Origin: Candidatus Sericytochromatia bacterium
Lineage (GTDB): Bacteria; Cyanobacteriota; Sericytochromatia; S15B-MN24; JAQBPE01
Assembly (NCBI GenBank): GCA_035285325.1
Contig: JAYKJB010000051.1
Location: forward strand, 1-33,568
Length of the DNA: 33,568 nt
Reading direction: 5' to 3'
Under the pieces are notes generated by a model, which saw only the letters and a program-made list of their open reading frames with translations, ran no database searches and was not told the DNA's origin. Of the stretch, positions 10,616 to 31,912 are shown piece after piece; positions within the stretch are counted from its first letter, which is position 1; each line of letters starts with the position of its first letter. Made by a program: the position numbers and the translations under genes.

Positions 10616-11487
10616 ACGCGAACGTGCCGGACCTCCCCGCCTTCCAGCGGGATGTGGTCCAGCTCATGGCGGGTCGCCAGGGCACCCTGGTCAGTGTCTC
10701 GGCGGAGACCGGCTTGTTGCGCGCGGTGGTGAACCCGGGCGCGGCACGCCAACCGACGCCACCCGGCTCGCTGTTCAAGCTGGCGATCGCCCTGGCCGCC
10801 CTGCAACCGGCCGCCACTGCCGGGACCACGCGTCGCTGCCAGGGGGTGCTCGCTGACGTTTCGCCCGGGCCTGCGCTGCGTTGCTGGCTTCCCAGCGGCC
10901 ACGGCCAGCTGGGGCTGGAGGAGGCCCTGGCGCTGTCTTGCAACGTCTATTTCGCCGGCTTGGGACGTGAACTGGGCGAACCCGCGGTTCGTCGCTGGGG
11001 CCAACGGGTTGGCTTCCTGCCCGCGAAGCAGGCCGTGGCGCCTCGTCTGGAGGCCTGGATCGGGGAAGGTGCGCAGTGGTCTGCCACCCCCTGGACGCTG
11101 GCTGCCTTTGCGGCTGCACTGTCGCGGGAGGACGGGCGGCGCTTCGAGCCGAGCTGGCACCAGCCGGTGGCATCGCTTTCCCCTCTGGGGCTCGGCGCGC
11201 GCACGCGGGAGCGTCTGCTGGCCGGGATGCGCCTGGCGAGCACCCGGGGAAGCGCGCGGGCGGCCGGCCGAGCGGGCTTGTTGGTGTATGGCAAGAGCGG
11301 AACCGCGACCTACCTGGATGGCTCGAACCGGACGTGGGGATGGTTCGTCGGCTTTGGCCGCGTGGCCGGGGGGCGAGCGCCTACGCTTGCGCTGGCCGTT
11401 CGATTGGGGGATGCCTCCGGGTTTGGCGATGCGGCGCCACTGGCCGGACAGGTCTTTGCCCGCTGGGCCGCGCGAGGAACCCCATGA
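10612..11487 (+). CDS. Stand-alone penicillin-binding transpeptidase-like protein
   Basis: A 291-residue protein with all three active-site motifs of penicillin-binding transpeptidases: S53-x-x-K56 in PPGSLFKLAIALAAL, S109-C-N111 in LALSCNVYFAGLG, and K228-S-G-T231 in YGKSGTATY. The region before the serine (TLVSVSAETGLLRAVVNPGA) matches the strand that precedes the catalytic serine in PBP2/FtsI-like enzymes. These normally have a membrane anchor and a pedestal domain. Here both are missing, and the N-terminus MNANVPDLPAFQRDVVQLMA shows no signal or transmembrane helix. It overlaps the membrane protein upstream and the SpoIID gene downstream, each by ATGA. It could be a D,D-peptidase, a beta-lactamase-like protein or a sensor; how it would reach the periplasm is unclear. 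Confidence 0.85.
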   Translation: MNANVPDLPAFQRDVVQLMAGRQGTLVSVSAETGLLRAVVNPGAARQPTPPGSLFKLAIALAALQPAATAGTTRRCQGVLADVSPGPALRCWLPSGHGQLGLEEALALSCNVYFAGLGRELGEPAVRRWGQRVGFLPAKQAVAPRLEAWIGEGAQWSATPWTLAAFAAALSREDGRRFEPSWHQPVASLSPLGLGARTRERLLAGMRLASTRGSARAAGRAGLLVYGKSGTATYLDGSNRTWGWFVGFGRVAGGRAPTLALAVRLGDASGFGDAAPLAGQVFARWAARGTP

Positions 11488-12650
11488 ACGGCCTGTCCGC
11501 CCAGGTCGAACTGCTGCTGTTTGCGCACGAACGCCCGGCCGCGCTGGAGGTGGCGGCTCTGAGAGACTGGCGCCTGCGCTCCAGTCTCGTCACGCGGCGT
11601 TTTCAGGCCAGTCGCTCGACCGCCCTGGAATGTCGCGCCGGCAGTGTCGGCTTGAAGGGCGAGGCCACAGCGGCCGCGCGCTGGCAGGGAGAGGGGGACG
11701 GGCCCTGGCGTCTGCGCGCGGCCGGACGCGTGGTGACGCTGCGTGGCGACTGGGAGGTGTCAGACCAGGGAGGCAACCTGCGGGTGAAGGTGCGCTTGCC
11801 TCTGGAGGACTATGTGGCCGGTGTGCTGCCAGCCGAGATCACGGCGGACGCCCCGGCTGCCGCTCTGGCTGCGCAAGCCGTCTGCGTGCGCAGTTTCACG
11901 TGGCGGGCGAGTCGACATCCGCGCCATGAGGCGGCCTGGCTCTGCGATGCGACTCACTGTCAGCGTTTTCGGGGGACACTCCTACCAGCGCGCTGGGTCA
12001 CGCGTGCCCTGGCCGCCAGCGCGCACGTCGTGCGCACCTGGGACGGCCAACCGGCCCTCACCGTGTGGCACGCCAGTTGTGGTGGCCACGGGGCGTCGGC
12101 CCAGGCCGCCTTTGGCGGGACGGCCGTGCCTTACCTGCTCGGCGGCCGGGACACGCGGCCCGACGGGCGCGCCTGGTGCGAAGGTGCGCCCGGGCCGTGG
12201 CGCCTGACGCTGCCGCGGGACCATGCGGAGGCCCTCTGGCGTTCCGGGGGATTGCTGGGCCCGGGGGAGAGCCTTGTGCAACTCTCGGTCGATGCGCGGG
12301 AGCCGGACGGGCGGGTGCGTACGCTTCGTTGGGCCGGCCACGCGCCTCGCGTGGCCCTCGCGCGGGAGGTCTGGCCGCGGCTGGGGCCAACCCTGCCCTG
12401 GCCGGGCTGGGCCAGCTTGCGCTTCGACCTGAATCCAACATCGGAGGGCTGGCAGTTCACCGGGCAGGGGCTGGGCCACGGGGTGGGGCTGTGCCAGGCT
12501 GGAGCGAGTGCGCGAGCCCGCAGCGGCTGGTCGTTTGCGCGCATTCTGGACGCCTATTTCCCTGGCACACGCAGCGCCCATTGGAGGCTCGTGCGGGGGC
12601 AAAGGAGCGTGGTACCATCCTGGGCGGATGAGGGTCCTCCGGGCCTGTGA
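11484..12650 (+). CDS. SpoIID/LytB-domain protein (putative peptidoglycan lytic transglycosylase)
   Basis: A 388-residue protein with a SpoIID domain from about residue 100 on: RLPLEDYVAGVLPAEI (104-119, with the expected catalytic-type glutamate), LAAQAVCVRSF, DATHCQRF (155-162), WHASCGGHG, and the C-terminal GHGVGLCQAGA (331-341). SpoIID cleaves glycan strands lacking stem peptides during engulfment in Bacillus, and homologues occur widely in non-sporulating bacteria, including cyanobacteria. The first 100 residues are unassigned. The usual N-terminal signal or transmembrane helix is not visible. The start is ATG 11484, overlapping the transpeptidase stop. A longer frame open upstream is a shadow of that gene. 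Pairing with a transpeptidase domain suggests a wall-remodelling job. Confidence 0.9.
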   Translation: MNGLSAQVELLLFAHERPAALEVAALRDWRLRSSLVTRRFQASRSTALECRAGSVGLKGEATAAARWQGEGDGPWRLRAAGRVVTLRGDWEVSDQGGNLRVKVRLPLEDYVAGVLPAEITADAPAAALAAQAVCVRSFTWRASRHPRHEAAWLCDATHCQRFRGTLLPARWVTRALAASAHVVRTWDGQPALTVWHASCGGHGASAQAAFGGTAVPYLLGGRDTRPDGRAWCEGAPGPWRLTLPRDHAEALWRSGGLLGPGESLVQLSVDAREPDGRVRTLRWAGHAPRVALAREVWPRLGPTLPWPGWASLRFDLNPTSEGWQFTGQGLGHGVGLCQAGASARARSGWSFARILDAYFPGTRSAHWRLVRGQRSVVPSWADEGPPGL

Positions 12651-12669
12651 CAGAGGGAGACACACGACC

Positions 12670-13041
12670 ATGACTGAGGACGCCGCTCCGAACCTTGCCG
12701 GGATTGCCCCGGATGCCCTCCAGGCCTTTCTGGAAAGGCTCGATGAGGCTGGAGAAATTCTTCAGGCCACCATCGATGGGGAAAGCAACGACGCAAGTCC
12801 GGTGTTTCGCGTCTACATGGACGGGGCGGCTTTTCTGGAGGCGGGTTACCTGATGGTCGAACAACTGGCGCCCGCGTTCCCCGCGGTCTACCGGGCGCTG
12901 CTGGAAGGCCACTATGAGGCTGCCCTCACCGATGCGACCCGGGGCCGCATCGGCTGGGGAGAGGCGCTTCAGCGCTTGCCCGAGTTCTTGCGGGAGTATG
13001 CCGTCGACCGGGCGGCTGCGGTGCTGGAATCCGACGACTGA
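12670..13041 (+). CDS. Small acidic protein of unknown function
   Basis: A 123-residue acidic protein, all-helical by appearance, without signal or membrane segment. It starts at ATG 12670, with AGAGGGAGA nine bases upstream, 19 bases after the SpoIID stop, so it is probably the last gene of the operon starting at 9170. Visible pieces are APDALQAFLERLDEAGEILQ, FRVYMDGAAFLEAGYLM and GEALQRLPEFLREYAVD. I recognise no family. The strong ribosome site and codon pattern support a real gene. It is followed by a 199-base spacer before glgP containing a GGCCGGC/GCCGGCC inverted repeat (about 13052-13078). Confidence 0.75.
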   Translation: MTEDAAPNLAGIAPDALQAFLERLDEAGEILQATIDGESNDASPVFRVYMDGAAFLEAGYLMVEQLAPAFPAVYRALLEGHYEAALTDATRGRIGWGEALQRLPEFLREYAVDRAAAVLESDD

Positions 13042-13240
13042 GCCTGGGCCGGCTTTTCTCTTGCCGCAGGCGCCGGCCTGCAACAGCCGAGCGTCATTTT
13101 CTGAGAATCAGGCCTGGCGCCGCTCGAGGGCCCTTCCCAGGGGCGGGGGGCTGACCCCACGCGGGCTGCGTGTTAGCATGCCCGTTATTACTGACGTTCA
13201 CCCGGACATGTCCTTCATTTTCATATAAGGAGCCCCTCGC

Positions 13241-29280: not shown

Positions 29281-29325
29281 TAAATTAACGTGAAGCAAAG
29301 GCAAAGAAGGGAAGGAAATCTGCCC

Positions 29326-30810
29326 ATGTCCGCCGCCCCGTCCACCCTCTGGCAACAGGTCCAGGGGTATTCCCGCGCCTTCTGGTTCGCGAACTTCATG
29401 GAGTTCGTCGAACGCTGGGCCTACTATGGCGTGCGTCTCTCGCTGGCCCTGTACATCGTGGGGGCGGCCAATCTGGGGGGCCTGGAGTTCAACCACATTC
29501 AGAAGGGCAATATCTACCTGTGGTGGGCTGTGATTGCCTCGTTCCTGCCCATGTTCACGGGTGGCTTTGCGGACCGCTACGGTTACAAGAAGACCATCGG
29601 CGTGGCGATCGCCCTGAAGATCGTCGGCTACGCCTTGATGGCGACCCAGCGCGAGTACTGGTCGTTCTTCTCTGGTTGCTTGTTGCTGGCGGCCGGCACC
29701 GGTCTGTTCAAGCCTGGCGTGCAGGGCCTGATCGCGCATAGCGTGGCGGGCCGAAACGCTTCGGTTGGCTGGGGCATCTTCTACGAGCTGGTCAACGTCG
29801 GGGCCTTCATCGCCGGTTTCACCGTCGACCCGCTCAAGGCCTGGGGCGGCTGGTCGGCCATCTTCGCCTTCAACACGGGGTTGGTGGCGCTGAATTTCCT
29901 GCCGCTGTTCATGTTCAAGGAGCCCGATGTGCAGCGCCCGGCGCCCTATGAGCGCTGGCAAGATGGCCTGGCCGAGGTGGGCCGCATCTTCGTCACGTCC
30001 TTGCGGGATATTCTGCAGCCGCGGCTGGCCGTGTTCATTCTGGTGTTCAGCGGATTCTGGTTCTCGTTCCACCAGTTGTTCGACCTGCTGCCCAACTTCA
30101 TCGACGACTGGACGACCGTCGCCAGCACCCCCAGCCTGTTTCACTCGCGTGAGGGCGGGGTGGATTCGGCCCAGATTCTCAATCTGAACTCCGGCTTGAT
30201 CATGGTGTTCATGATCCCGGTGGCCTATGTGGCTTCGCGCTTCCAGCCGCTGGTGGCGATCTGCATCGGCATGTTGGCGGCGATCGCCGGCATCCTGATG
30301 GCCGGAATGACCCAGCTGGGCACCCTGGTGATCGGCGGAGTGGCAGTCTTTACGCTCGGCGAGATGCTTAGCAGCCCGCGCACCAAGGACTACATGGGCA
30401 CGATTGCGCCGCCGGACAAGCGCGCGCTGTTCATGGGCTACGGCGAGGTGCCGAGCGGCTTGGGCTGGGCCTTGGGTTCGATCTTCGCGGGTAACTTCTA
30501 CGAGCATCACGGCGACAAGGTCAACTTCGCGCGGGCCTGGCTTCAGTCGCAGGGCGGCATGACGCCGGAGGCGGTCGCGGCCATTCCCAAGGAAAAGGTC
30601 ATGGAAACCTTGGCGGCCAAGGCGCAGCTGACGATTCCGCAGGCCACGCAGATGCTCTGGAACCTGCATCATCCGCAGGTCATCTGGTACTGGATCGCGG
30701 GGGTCGGGGGCGTGTCGCTGGTGGCGATGGTGATTTACACCTACGTCCTGGCGGCACAAGACCGGCGTCCGGGCGGAGCTTCGAGCGAAGTTCCCGGGGC
30801 CGCCGCGTAG
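29326..30810 (+). CDS. POT-family proton-coupled oligopeptide transporter
   Basis: A 494-residue major-facilitator protein with about 12 membrane segments. The POT proton-coupling motif E-x-x-E-R is at residues 26-30 in FMEFVERWAYYGVR. GGFADRYGYKK is the MFS loop 2-3 motif, and GTGLFKPGVQGLIAHSV with FYELVNVGAFIAGF match the PTR2 signatures. A loop rich in charged residues (FYEHHGDKVNFARAWLQSQG onward, about 390-450) separates the last helices and is longer than usual. ATG 29326, with AAGGA nine bases upstream, is preferred to a GTG at 29290. It imports di/tripeptides with protons by family; substrates are unproven. The gene ends in a canonical terminator. Confidence 0.9.
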   Translation: MSAAPSTLWQQVQGYSRAFWFANFMEFVERWAYYGVRLSLALYIVGAANLGGLEFNHIQKGNIYLWWAVIASFLPMFTGGFADRYGYKKTIGVAIALKIVGYALMATQREYWSFFSGCLLLAAGTGLFKPGVQGLIAHSVAGRNASVGWGIFYELVNVGAFIAGFTVDPLKAWGGWSAIFAFNTGLVALNFLPLFMFKEPDVQRPAPYERWQDGLAEVGRIFVTSLRDILQPRLAVFILVFSGFWFSFHQLFDLLPNFIDDWTTVASTPSLFHSREGGVDSAQILNLNSGLIMVFMIPVAYVASRFQPLVAICIGMLAAIAGILMAGMTQLGTLVIGGVAVFTLGEMLSSPRTKDYMGTIAPPDKRALFMGYGEVPSGLGWALGSIFAGNFYEHHGDKVNFARAWLQSQGGMTPEAVAAIPKEKVMETLAAKAQLTIPQATQMLWNLHHPQVIWYWIAGVGGVSLVAMVIYTYVLAAQDRRPGGASSEVPGAAA

Positions 30811-30870
30811 CGGCCCCACCGGCATCGGCTGCCTTCGCCCGCAAGCTGGACGGGCGAATCACGCGATGGA

Positions 30871-30901
30871 GGCTCCCACGACTCGTGGGGGCCTTTTTTT
30901 T
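30871..30901 (+). terminator. Canonical rho-independent terminator after the POT gene
   Basis: GGCTCCCACG (30871-30880) pairs with CGTGGGGGCC (30884-30893) over a 3-base loop, with one G-T pair, followed by eight T residues. It is the only textbook terminator in the window. Confidence 0.92.
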
Positions 30902-30960
30902 CGGGTGGCAGCGGGGTGTCGCCTTGGGGCACCTCAGTGCCACGGGGGACAGTTGGGCGC

Positions 30961-31189
30961 TCGGATCGGTTGATCTGAAATCTGTCAATGGAATTGTGTG
31001 ATACACATCTCTGATCTTGGCCCGTTCATCTGCCAGTTGTGTACACATCGACTTGATTTGCGGCGAAATGCCGGAAATGATCTTGTGATCAGGATCTCCA
31101 GATCTGAGCCGATCAGTCCAGATCAAACAAGCCCCATGATCTGGTCAGAATTCCAGCCGTCATGGTGGGGTTGTGTGTTACATAACCCC
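30961..31189. promoter_or_regulatory. Non-coding cluster of GATC sites and TGTGT/ACACA dyads
   Basis: The convergent spacer 30811-31177 (367 bases) has no gene. After the terminator, 30961-31140 is about 47% G+C by my count. It holds ten GATC sites starting at 30964, 30972, 31013, 31079, 31087, 31093, 31101, 31111, 31121 and 31138; five are TGATCT or its complement. Dyads: TGTGT-GAT-ACACA at 30995-31007, the perfect palindrome TGTGTACACA at 31038-31047, and a 10-bp stem with one G-T pair at 31167-31189 that overlaps the oxygenase stop. CCAGATCA (31118-31125) faces TGATCTGG (31137-31144), and TCCAGATC is repeated at 31097 and 31117. Because both flanking genes point inward, these are not promoters for them. 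Confidence 0.6.
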
Positions 31190-31912
31190 GCGTTCGTCCG
31201 GGGGGCCGGCCAGCCAGCGGCGCACCTCGTCGCCGAAGGGCCCCGGCCCCGTCCCGCCCGAGAGTGGCGGTTCCGCCGGGGTCGCCTCACGGCGCGTGCC
31301 CACCCGAACGTCGGGCAGGTGCGCCAGTTGCACGTCCGTCAGGCGGTACTGTTCCACCACCAGACTGAGCCGCGCCTCGTAAATGTCCGGCGCCCCCGCG
31401 TCCACCGGGGTGACCTCATGGCGCAGTTCGCCGCGGAAGGTCACCAGGGCACCCTCGCGCGGCGTGACGGTGGCCTTCAGACGCTGGCCCTCATAGAGCT
31501 TCAAGTCACCCCCACGCAAGCTGGGGGGCACCTCGAGGTACAGCACGGAGACGCTGCGCGGGGTGCGCACGCCCGGGATGTGGCTGCTCAGGCTCAGGTC
31601 GATGTGCGGGGCCACCCCGGCGCCGTTGGTGATCAGCAGCGGGTTGAGGAAAAACGCATTGCATTCCGGACGCAGGGCGGCTTCGAAGAAGGGCGCAAAA
31701 GCCGGAAACTGGGTGATGACTTCATCCAGCTGGCTGCGGCAGAAGGCGACGGAAAACCCATAGGTGCCTGTGAATCGCTGGTTGAGGTTGCTGGCGCCCA
31801 TCAGGGGCGAGTTCAGCACGGCACGCCGGATCTCCGCCACCTGCTGGGGAGCCAGGGGCGCTGCTTGTAAGCGGTAGTGACGGAAGCGCCCGAAGCGCCA
31901 GAAGCCTTGCAT
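31178..31912 (-). CDS. 2-oxoglutarate/Fe(II)-dependent dioxygenase
   Basis: A 244-residue protein with the iron facial triad H103-x-D105 (GVAPHIDLSL) and H165 (LRHEVTPV), and R181 (EARLSLVVEQYRL) to bind 2-oxoglutarate. EVPPSLRGGDLKLYEGQRL is the strand pair between them and resembles prolyl-hydroxylase-like (P4Hc/PKHD) enzymes, which hydroxylate protein or small-molecule targets. The C-terminal 45 residues are extra and Pro/Gly-rich. The start is ATG 31912, with AGGA nine bases upstream. The stop codon lies inside a 23-base hairpin (31167-31189). The substrate is unknown. Confidence 0.87.
   Translation of the reverse strand: MQGFWRFGRFRHYRLQAAPLAPQQVAEIRRAVLNSPLMGASNLNQRFTGTYGFSVAFCRSQLDEVITQFPAFAPFFEAALRPECNAFFLNPLLITNGAGVAPHIDLSLSSHIPGVRTPRSVSVLYLEVPPSLRGGDLKLYEGQRLKATVTPREGALVTFRGELRHEVTPVDAGAPDIYEARLSLVVEQYRLTDVQLAHLPDVRVGTRREATPAEPPLSGGTGPGPFGDEVRRWLAGPPDERGVM

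Follow-up and report, generated by a model that had tools for sequence, protein, structure and literature searches.

A conserved GATC- and palindrome-rich non-coding element between a transporter and an oxygenase gene in Sericytochromatia

The locus and the composition of its spacer

The window analysed here is a 33,568-nucleotide stretch of contig JAYKJB010000051.1, from the genome of a Candidatus Sericytochromatia bacterium (assembly GCA_035285325.1). Toward one end of it, a transporter gene and a 2OG-Fe(II) oxygenase gene converge on a spacer crowded with GATC sites and palindromes, the features of which are listed in Table 1. The element in this spacer is separated from the transporter mRNA by an intrinsic terminator, and the 3' end of the oxygenase gene lies inside the last hairpin of the element. 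Compared with the homologue in RYN_339, a related genome described below, and with two other homologues, the oxygenase carries about ten extra C-terminal residues (AGPPDERGVM), and positions 31178-31210, where these are encoded, may mark the junction of a deletion. The spacer was also considered as a gene remnant, and this was rejected because the open reading frames crossing it matched no family. Elsewhere in the window, about 2.6 kb (10616-13240) showed neither an open reading frame of typical codon-position G+C nor an Rfam match.

Table 1 Features of the transporter-oxygenase spacer and its flanks in the window
Feature	Position	Strand	Details
MFS/POT-type transporter gene	29290..30810	+	Pfam MFS_1, E=2e-23; weak PTR2
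Intrinsic terminator of the transporter gene	30868..30903	+	stem and T run
Left part of the GATC-rich island	30961..31036	.	GGATCG, two TGATCT, dyad TTGTGTGATACACATC (30994-31009)
Dyad TTGTGTACAC	31037..31046	.	perfect palindrome TGTGTACACA at 31038-31047
Conserved GATC core	31076..31114	.	AAATGATC-N4-GATC-N10-GATC-N6-GATC, including TCCAGATCTG; GATC offsets 0/8/22/32, identical in RYN_339
Inverted repeat TCAGTCCAGATCA / TGATCTGGTCAGA	31113..31149	.	loop 11
GGGGTTGTGTGTTACATAACCCC, third dyad within hairpin	31167..31189	.	oxygenase stop codon (minus strand) lies within it, at 31178-31180
2OG-Fe(II) oxygenase gene	31178..31912	-	Pfam PF13640

Ten GATC sites were counted within 178 bp of the spacer (30964-31141), starting at 30964, 30972, 31013, 31079, 31087, 31093, 31101, 31111, 31121 and 31138. 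This agrees with an earlier sequence-only reading, made without database searches, which had noted ten sites in about 180 bp. That reading had also described five sites of the TGATCT/AGATCA type, an island of low G+C and a difference from HIP1; indeed, we found four TGATCT and one AGATCA, a G+C content of about 50% (48-54%) against 62-76% around the island, and no CGATCG among the ten.

The background was measured in 363 kb of the same genome (3.83 Mb in 138 contigs); two of the sampled stretches were largely or wholly masked, and the values refer to unmasked bases only. GATC occurred once per 188 bp, or 0.94 times per 178 bp (the earlier reading had expected about 0.7). No other 178-bp stretch in the sample held more than seven GATCs. 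Windows of 52% G+C or less held zero to four. The Poisson probability of at least ten sites was 7e-8 per window and about 0.003 genome-wide. When the spacer was shuffled 2000 times with its dinucleotides preserved, the mean was 3.0 and the maximum 8, never reaching ten; the spacer's own dinucleotides thus account for about three of the ten sites. GATC is over-represented 1.6-fold in the sampled genome. Triplets within about 40 bp are frequent (211), so the exceptional part is the density of ten together with the dyads. The cluster is real and goes beyond composition.

The dyad TTGTGT-N0-3-ACA was found at seven sites in the whole 3.83 Mb genome, three of them in the spacer (at 30994, 31037 and 31171), where shuffled sequence averaged 0.01 sites. 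The first two are clean (TGTGTGATACACA and TGTGTACACA), whereas the third, imperfect one, GTGTGTTACATAAC, shares bases with the stop codon of the oxygenase gene; hence the three dyads noted earlier were all present, one of them in imperfect form. The repeat TCCAGATC, described before as having a 20-bp period, was confirmed in just two copies, 20 bp apart. Overall, a set of GATC-centred palindromes, one of which is extended into a hairpin (consensus half-site GATCTGG/CCAGATC), lies between TTGTGT-N0-3-ACA(C) dyads. The loop-less palindromes are TGTGTACACA and CAGATCTG. The best limits for the feature are about 31037-31189, together with a weaker left part at 30961-31036, which does not align with RYN_339 and is perhaps a partial duplication. 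The element measures about 110-150 bp, or about 230 bp including the left part.

The counterpart in RYN_339

RYN_339 is a metagenome-assembled genome of another genus in the same family, and its orthologous transporter is 64-65% identical. The same element was found 3' of this transporter with its parts in the same order, namely a dyad, GATC-N4-GATC-N10-GATC-N6-GATC, CCAGATCTG, a CCAGATC/GATCTGG hairpin and a second dyad. The transporter stop codon is followed by two bases, the dyad hairpin GGGGTTGTGTGTACACGCCCC, AAACGATCGTCTGATCCCCGTTTCCAGATCTGGCCAGATCGCGAATGCGATCTGGCC and the second dyad GGGCTTGTGTACACGG. The hairpin GGCCAGATCGC-GAAT-GCGATCTGGCC is the counterpart of the inverted repeat in the window, the 10-mer TTGTGTACAC recurs, and GTGTACAC and CCAGATCTGG are loop-less palindromes. 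No counterpart of the transporter terminator was found in RYN_339.

In a MAFFT alignment, window positions 31076-31182 were collinear with RYN_339, with 61 of 83 aligned bases identical (73%) and 25 gap columns. Five GATCs coincided, four of them at identical spacing (8, 14 and 10 bp). The ungapped similarity exceeded that of all 2000 shuffles in which each GATC was kept whole, and GATC-preserving shuffles gave p=0.002 for the shared 10-mers, p=0.0095 for the coincident GATC spacing and p=0.016 for the gapped score. GATC columns were kept better than the rest (22/25 vs 39/58), though not significantly (p=0.06). Conservation of the spacer in relatives, on which the sequence-only reading had proposed to judge the site, was thus observed.

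The GATC spacing pattern occurred at four places in 386 genomes of the phylum, one each in the window's genome and RYN_339; since the pattern was derived with both sequences in view, this count is support and no blind test. The other two places, in two further genomes, were without TTGTGT and were regarded as chance. The dyad pattern, likewise written with both copies in view, gave 11 relaxed matches in the 7.0 Mb of RYN_339, two of which lie at the orthologous place. All five dyads of the locus, three in the window and two in RYN_339, have the same orientation. A stricter pattern ending in GATC was found once in the window's genome and twice in RYN_339, in every case at the locus. A dispersed repeat was rejected, as the other TTGTGT...ACA sites in both genomes lacked the GATC-plus-dyad arrangement.

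The gene order differs between the two genomes. In RYN_339, a co-oriented ARPP-1 gene starts about 50 bp past the last dyad of the element. Downstream of ARPP-1, MOSC, GntR-family and histidine-phosphatase genes precede the oxygenase gene. In the window, none of these intervening genes, ARPP-1 included, lies between the element and the oxygenase. The comparison suggests, as the simplest account, a deletion joining the element to the 3' end of the oxygenase gene, and the convergent layout in the window looks secondary; with two genomes compared, an insertion in RYN_339 could also explain the difference. The earlier statement that there is no promoter to regulate is weakened by the position directly upstream of ARPP-1 in RYN_339 and by the overrun of the oxygenase into the element. 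A sigma-70-like promoter was not found in either copy; the sigma-70 consensus may not be that of the host.

The element is single-copy in both genomes. A lone 20-bp exact match elsewhere in the window's genome was dismissed as chance, because the coding frame that contains it resembles a basic amino-acid decarboxylase and the similarity ends with those bases. RYN_339 was the sole close relative in a contig search with the transporter, and a search with the oxygenase found nothing. In three same-order genomes the element was absent downstream of the transporter homologues, plasmids and phages gave no match, and the core pattern was not found in viral contigs; accordingly, it appears to be restricted to the family of the window's genome, of which two members were seen. 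Dyad-plus-GATC matches in other genomes of the class looked unrelated. Another genome of the class has a TTGTGTGCTACACT site, accompanied by seven GATCs within about 320 bp, in front of a ribosomal protein S10-like gene; it looks like a promoter and unrelated to the element. Taken together, the conserved single-copy non-coding element is genuine and probably a control or protein-binding site rather than a random oddity, the case being moderate with two members.

Candidate functions of the element

As in a regulator-binding array, the non-coding sequence at this locus holds sites of dyad symmetry that both genera have kept. The loop-less palindromes are a feature of DNA rather than of RNA, and their conservation between genera points to dimeric DNA-binding proteins, one or more of which would assemble on the palindrome array. 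The position in RYN_339 likewise points to control of the downstream gene. We therefore tentatively favour, at somewhat less than even confidence, a single-copy cis-acting DNA site for dimeric proteins that would serve a regulatory role, as the upstream control region of the plus-strand gene after it. The putative regulated neighbour is ARPP-1 in RYN_339, whereas in the window a convergent gene takes its place; there, ARPP-1 and its neighbours may have been lost by the deletion, which would have left the site between convergent genes. Points against this reading are the occurrence in two genomes only, with no copy after the transporter homologues of the same order, the failure to find a sigma-70-like promoter in both copies, the non-significant preference for GATC columns, and hairpin pairing that would also fit an RNA. 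Operators of dimeric regulators such as those of the GntR family have a core of GT-Nx-AC. The TTGTGT-N0-3-ACA(C) dyads share this general shape. About 1.6 kb past the element of RYN_339 there is a GntR-family gene; in the window, this gene is not next to the element.

The main rival is a structured RNA, namely a plus-strand transcript, be it a small RNA or a structured leader or 3' UTR, that would fold through the GATC-rich inverted repeats; we consider it possible but doubtful. The plus strand folded better than shuffles, with z-scores of -4.2 in the window and -3.6 in RYN_339 (minus strand in the window, -2.6), yet GATC is self-complementary and a GATC cluster therefore inflates such scores. 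The consensus fold keeps 27 pairs, two of them changed on both sides, and this pairing would fit an RNA, but two sequences are too few for covariation and the best-conserved dyads, being without a loop, make no good RNA hairpins. In favour of an RNA, the RYN_339 element begins two bases past the transporter stop codon and ends about 50 bp before ARPP-1; in the window, on the other hand, the intrinsic terminator cuts the element off from the transporter mRNA. Neither a promoter nor a terminator was found inside or directly after the element, and Rfam gave no match at the gathering level in the window, with only chance-level matches over the spacer below it. A degraded small mobile element or an integration scar, of MITE type and ending in TTGTGT...ACA, is quite improbable in our view. 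It would explain the repeated ends around an inverted repeat and the island composition unlike the surroundings; however, the bracketing repeats are direct in both genomes and not terminal inverted repeats, and plasmids and phages gave no match, nor viral contigs the core pattern. The integration scar offered in the sequence-only reading is made unlikely by the matching order of the element's parts at the orthologous place in two genera and by the single copy in each genome. That an AT-richer spacer in a GATC-rich genome acquired the cluster by chance and compositional bias is the least credible explanation, hardly to be entertained: the 1.6-fold excess of GATC, the three sites retained in shuffles and the 211 triplets lend it something, but no sampled window reached ten GATCs, neither the dyads nor the collinear conservation would be explained, and the RYN_339 copy largely refutes it.

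It is unlikely, although less so than a mobile origin, that the element serves chromosome maintenance, as an origin or terminus or as a site for segregation or nucleoid proteins, and is read through GATC as Dam and SeqA sites are. One copy per genome, a very high GATC density, an AT-richer island and the genome-wide enrichment of GATC and HIP1 would suit such a site. Against this, SeqA (PF03925) was absent from the window's genome and RYN_339 while being found in the E. coli control. The methyltransferase search used the Dam-like protein of RYN_339 as the query together with PF02086 in the unmasked genome: a Dam-like protein, which RYN_339 has and which occurs in 13 of the 18 class genomes, was not found in the window's genome, an absence that is not final as parts of this genome are masked, and the PF02086 matches there are not Dam by the NCBIfam cut-off. 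Nevertheless, the window's copy has more GATCs than that of RYN_339. The G-C excess, proposed earlier as a check for an origin or terminus, showed no turn at the element, no replication gene lies beside it, and contig breaks prevent its placement relative to either. A dif site was also considered and rejected, since a by-eye comparison showed no XerC/XerD arm pair. The earlier reading of a special site, neither an ordinary spacer nor HIP1, was upheld, whereas its denial of a promoter to regulate and its proposal of sensitivity to GATC methylation held less well; with no Dam-like enzyme in the visible genome and no SeqA, a methylation-read site is possible but unsupported. Still less probable, and very unlikely in our estimate, is a nucleoprotein site specific to this non-photosynthetic cyanobacterial family, at which a putative protein would read the GATC palindromes between the dyads. 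Present once per genome, such a site would help to organise or segregate the chromosome where neither Dam nor SeqA was detected.

Known GATC clusters offer comparisons. In E. coli oriC, GATC sites are crowded at short, uneven intervals within an island richer in A+T. The element resembles oriC and SeqA-bound clusters in these respects, and differs from oriC in that no SeqA and no Dam were found, replication genes are not adjacent, and TTGTGT...ACA dyads are added. Local GATC clustering is also common to E. coli genes and the element; in those genes the clusters are found inside coding sequence and are linked to methylation by Dam (PMC493266), whereas the element is intergenic in a genome with no detected Dam. 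Cyanobacterial HIP1 (GCGATCGC) is associated with GATC and CGATCG methyltransferases (PMC4390886). It shares the GATC core and the phylum with the element, but is dispersed genome-wide, while the element is one cluster with no CGATCG among its ten sites.

Two further observations concern methylation and HIP1 in these genomes. A PF02086 adenine methyltransferase of 408 aa is encoded in the window's genome and a similar one of 376 aa in RYN_339, both on the minus strand, at 526-1752 and 1345-2475, respectively, of the stretches examined; by sequence, no relative of this protein was found among solved structures. HIP1 is about 10-fold over-represented in the window's genome (130 in 363 kb vs 13 expected), which is apparently non-photosynthetic, and a literature search found no paper joining Sericytochromatia with HIP1.

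To our knowledge, conserved non-coding elements have hardly been charted in the non-photosynthetic relatives of Cyanobacteria. As a candidate cis-acting site that is single-copy, has clear landmarks and occurs in two genera, the element is one from which the bound protein could be fished out directly. It would also allow the role of GATC clusters to be tested in a lineage without SeqA.
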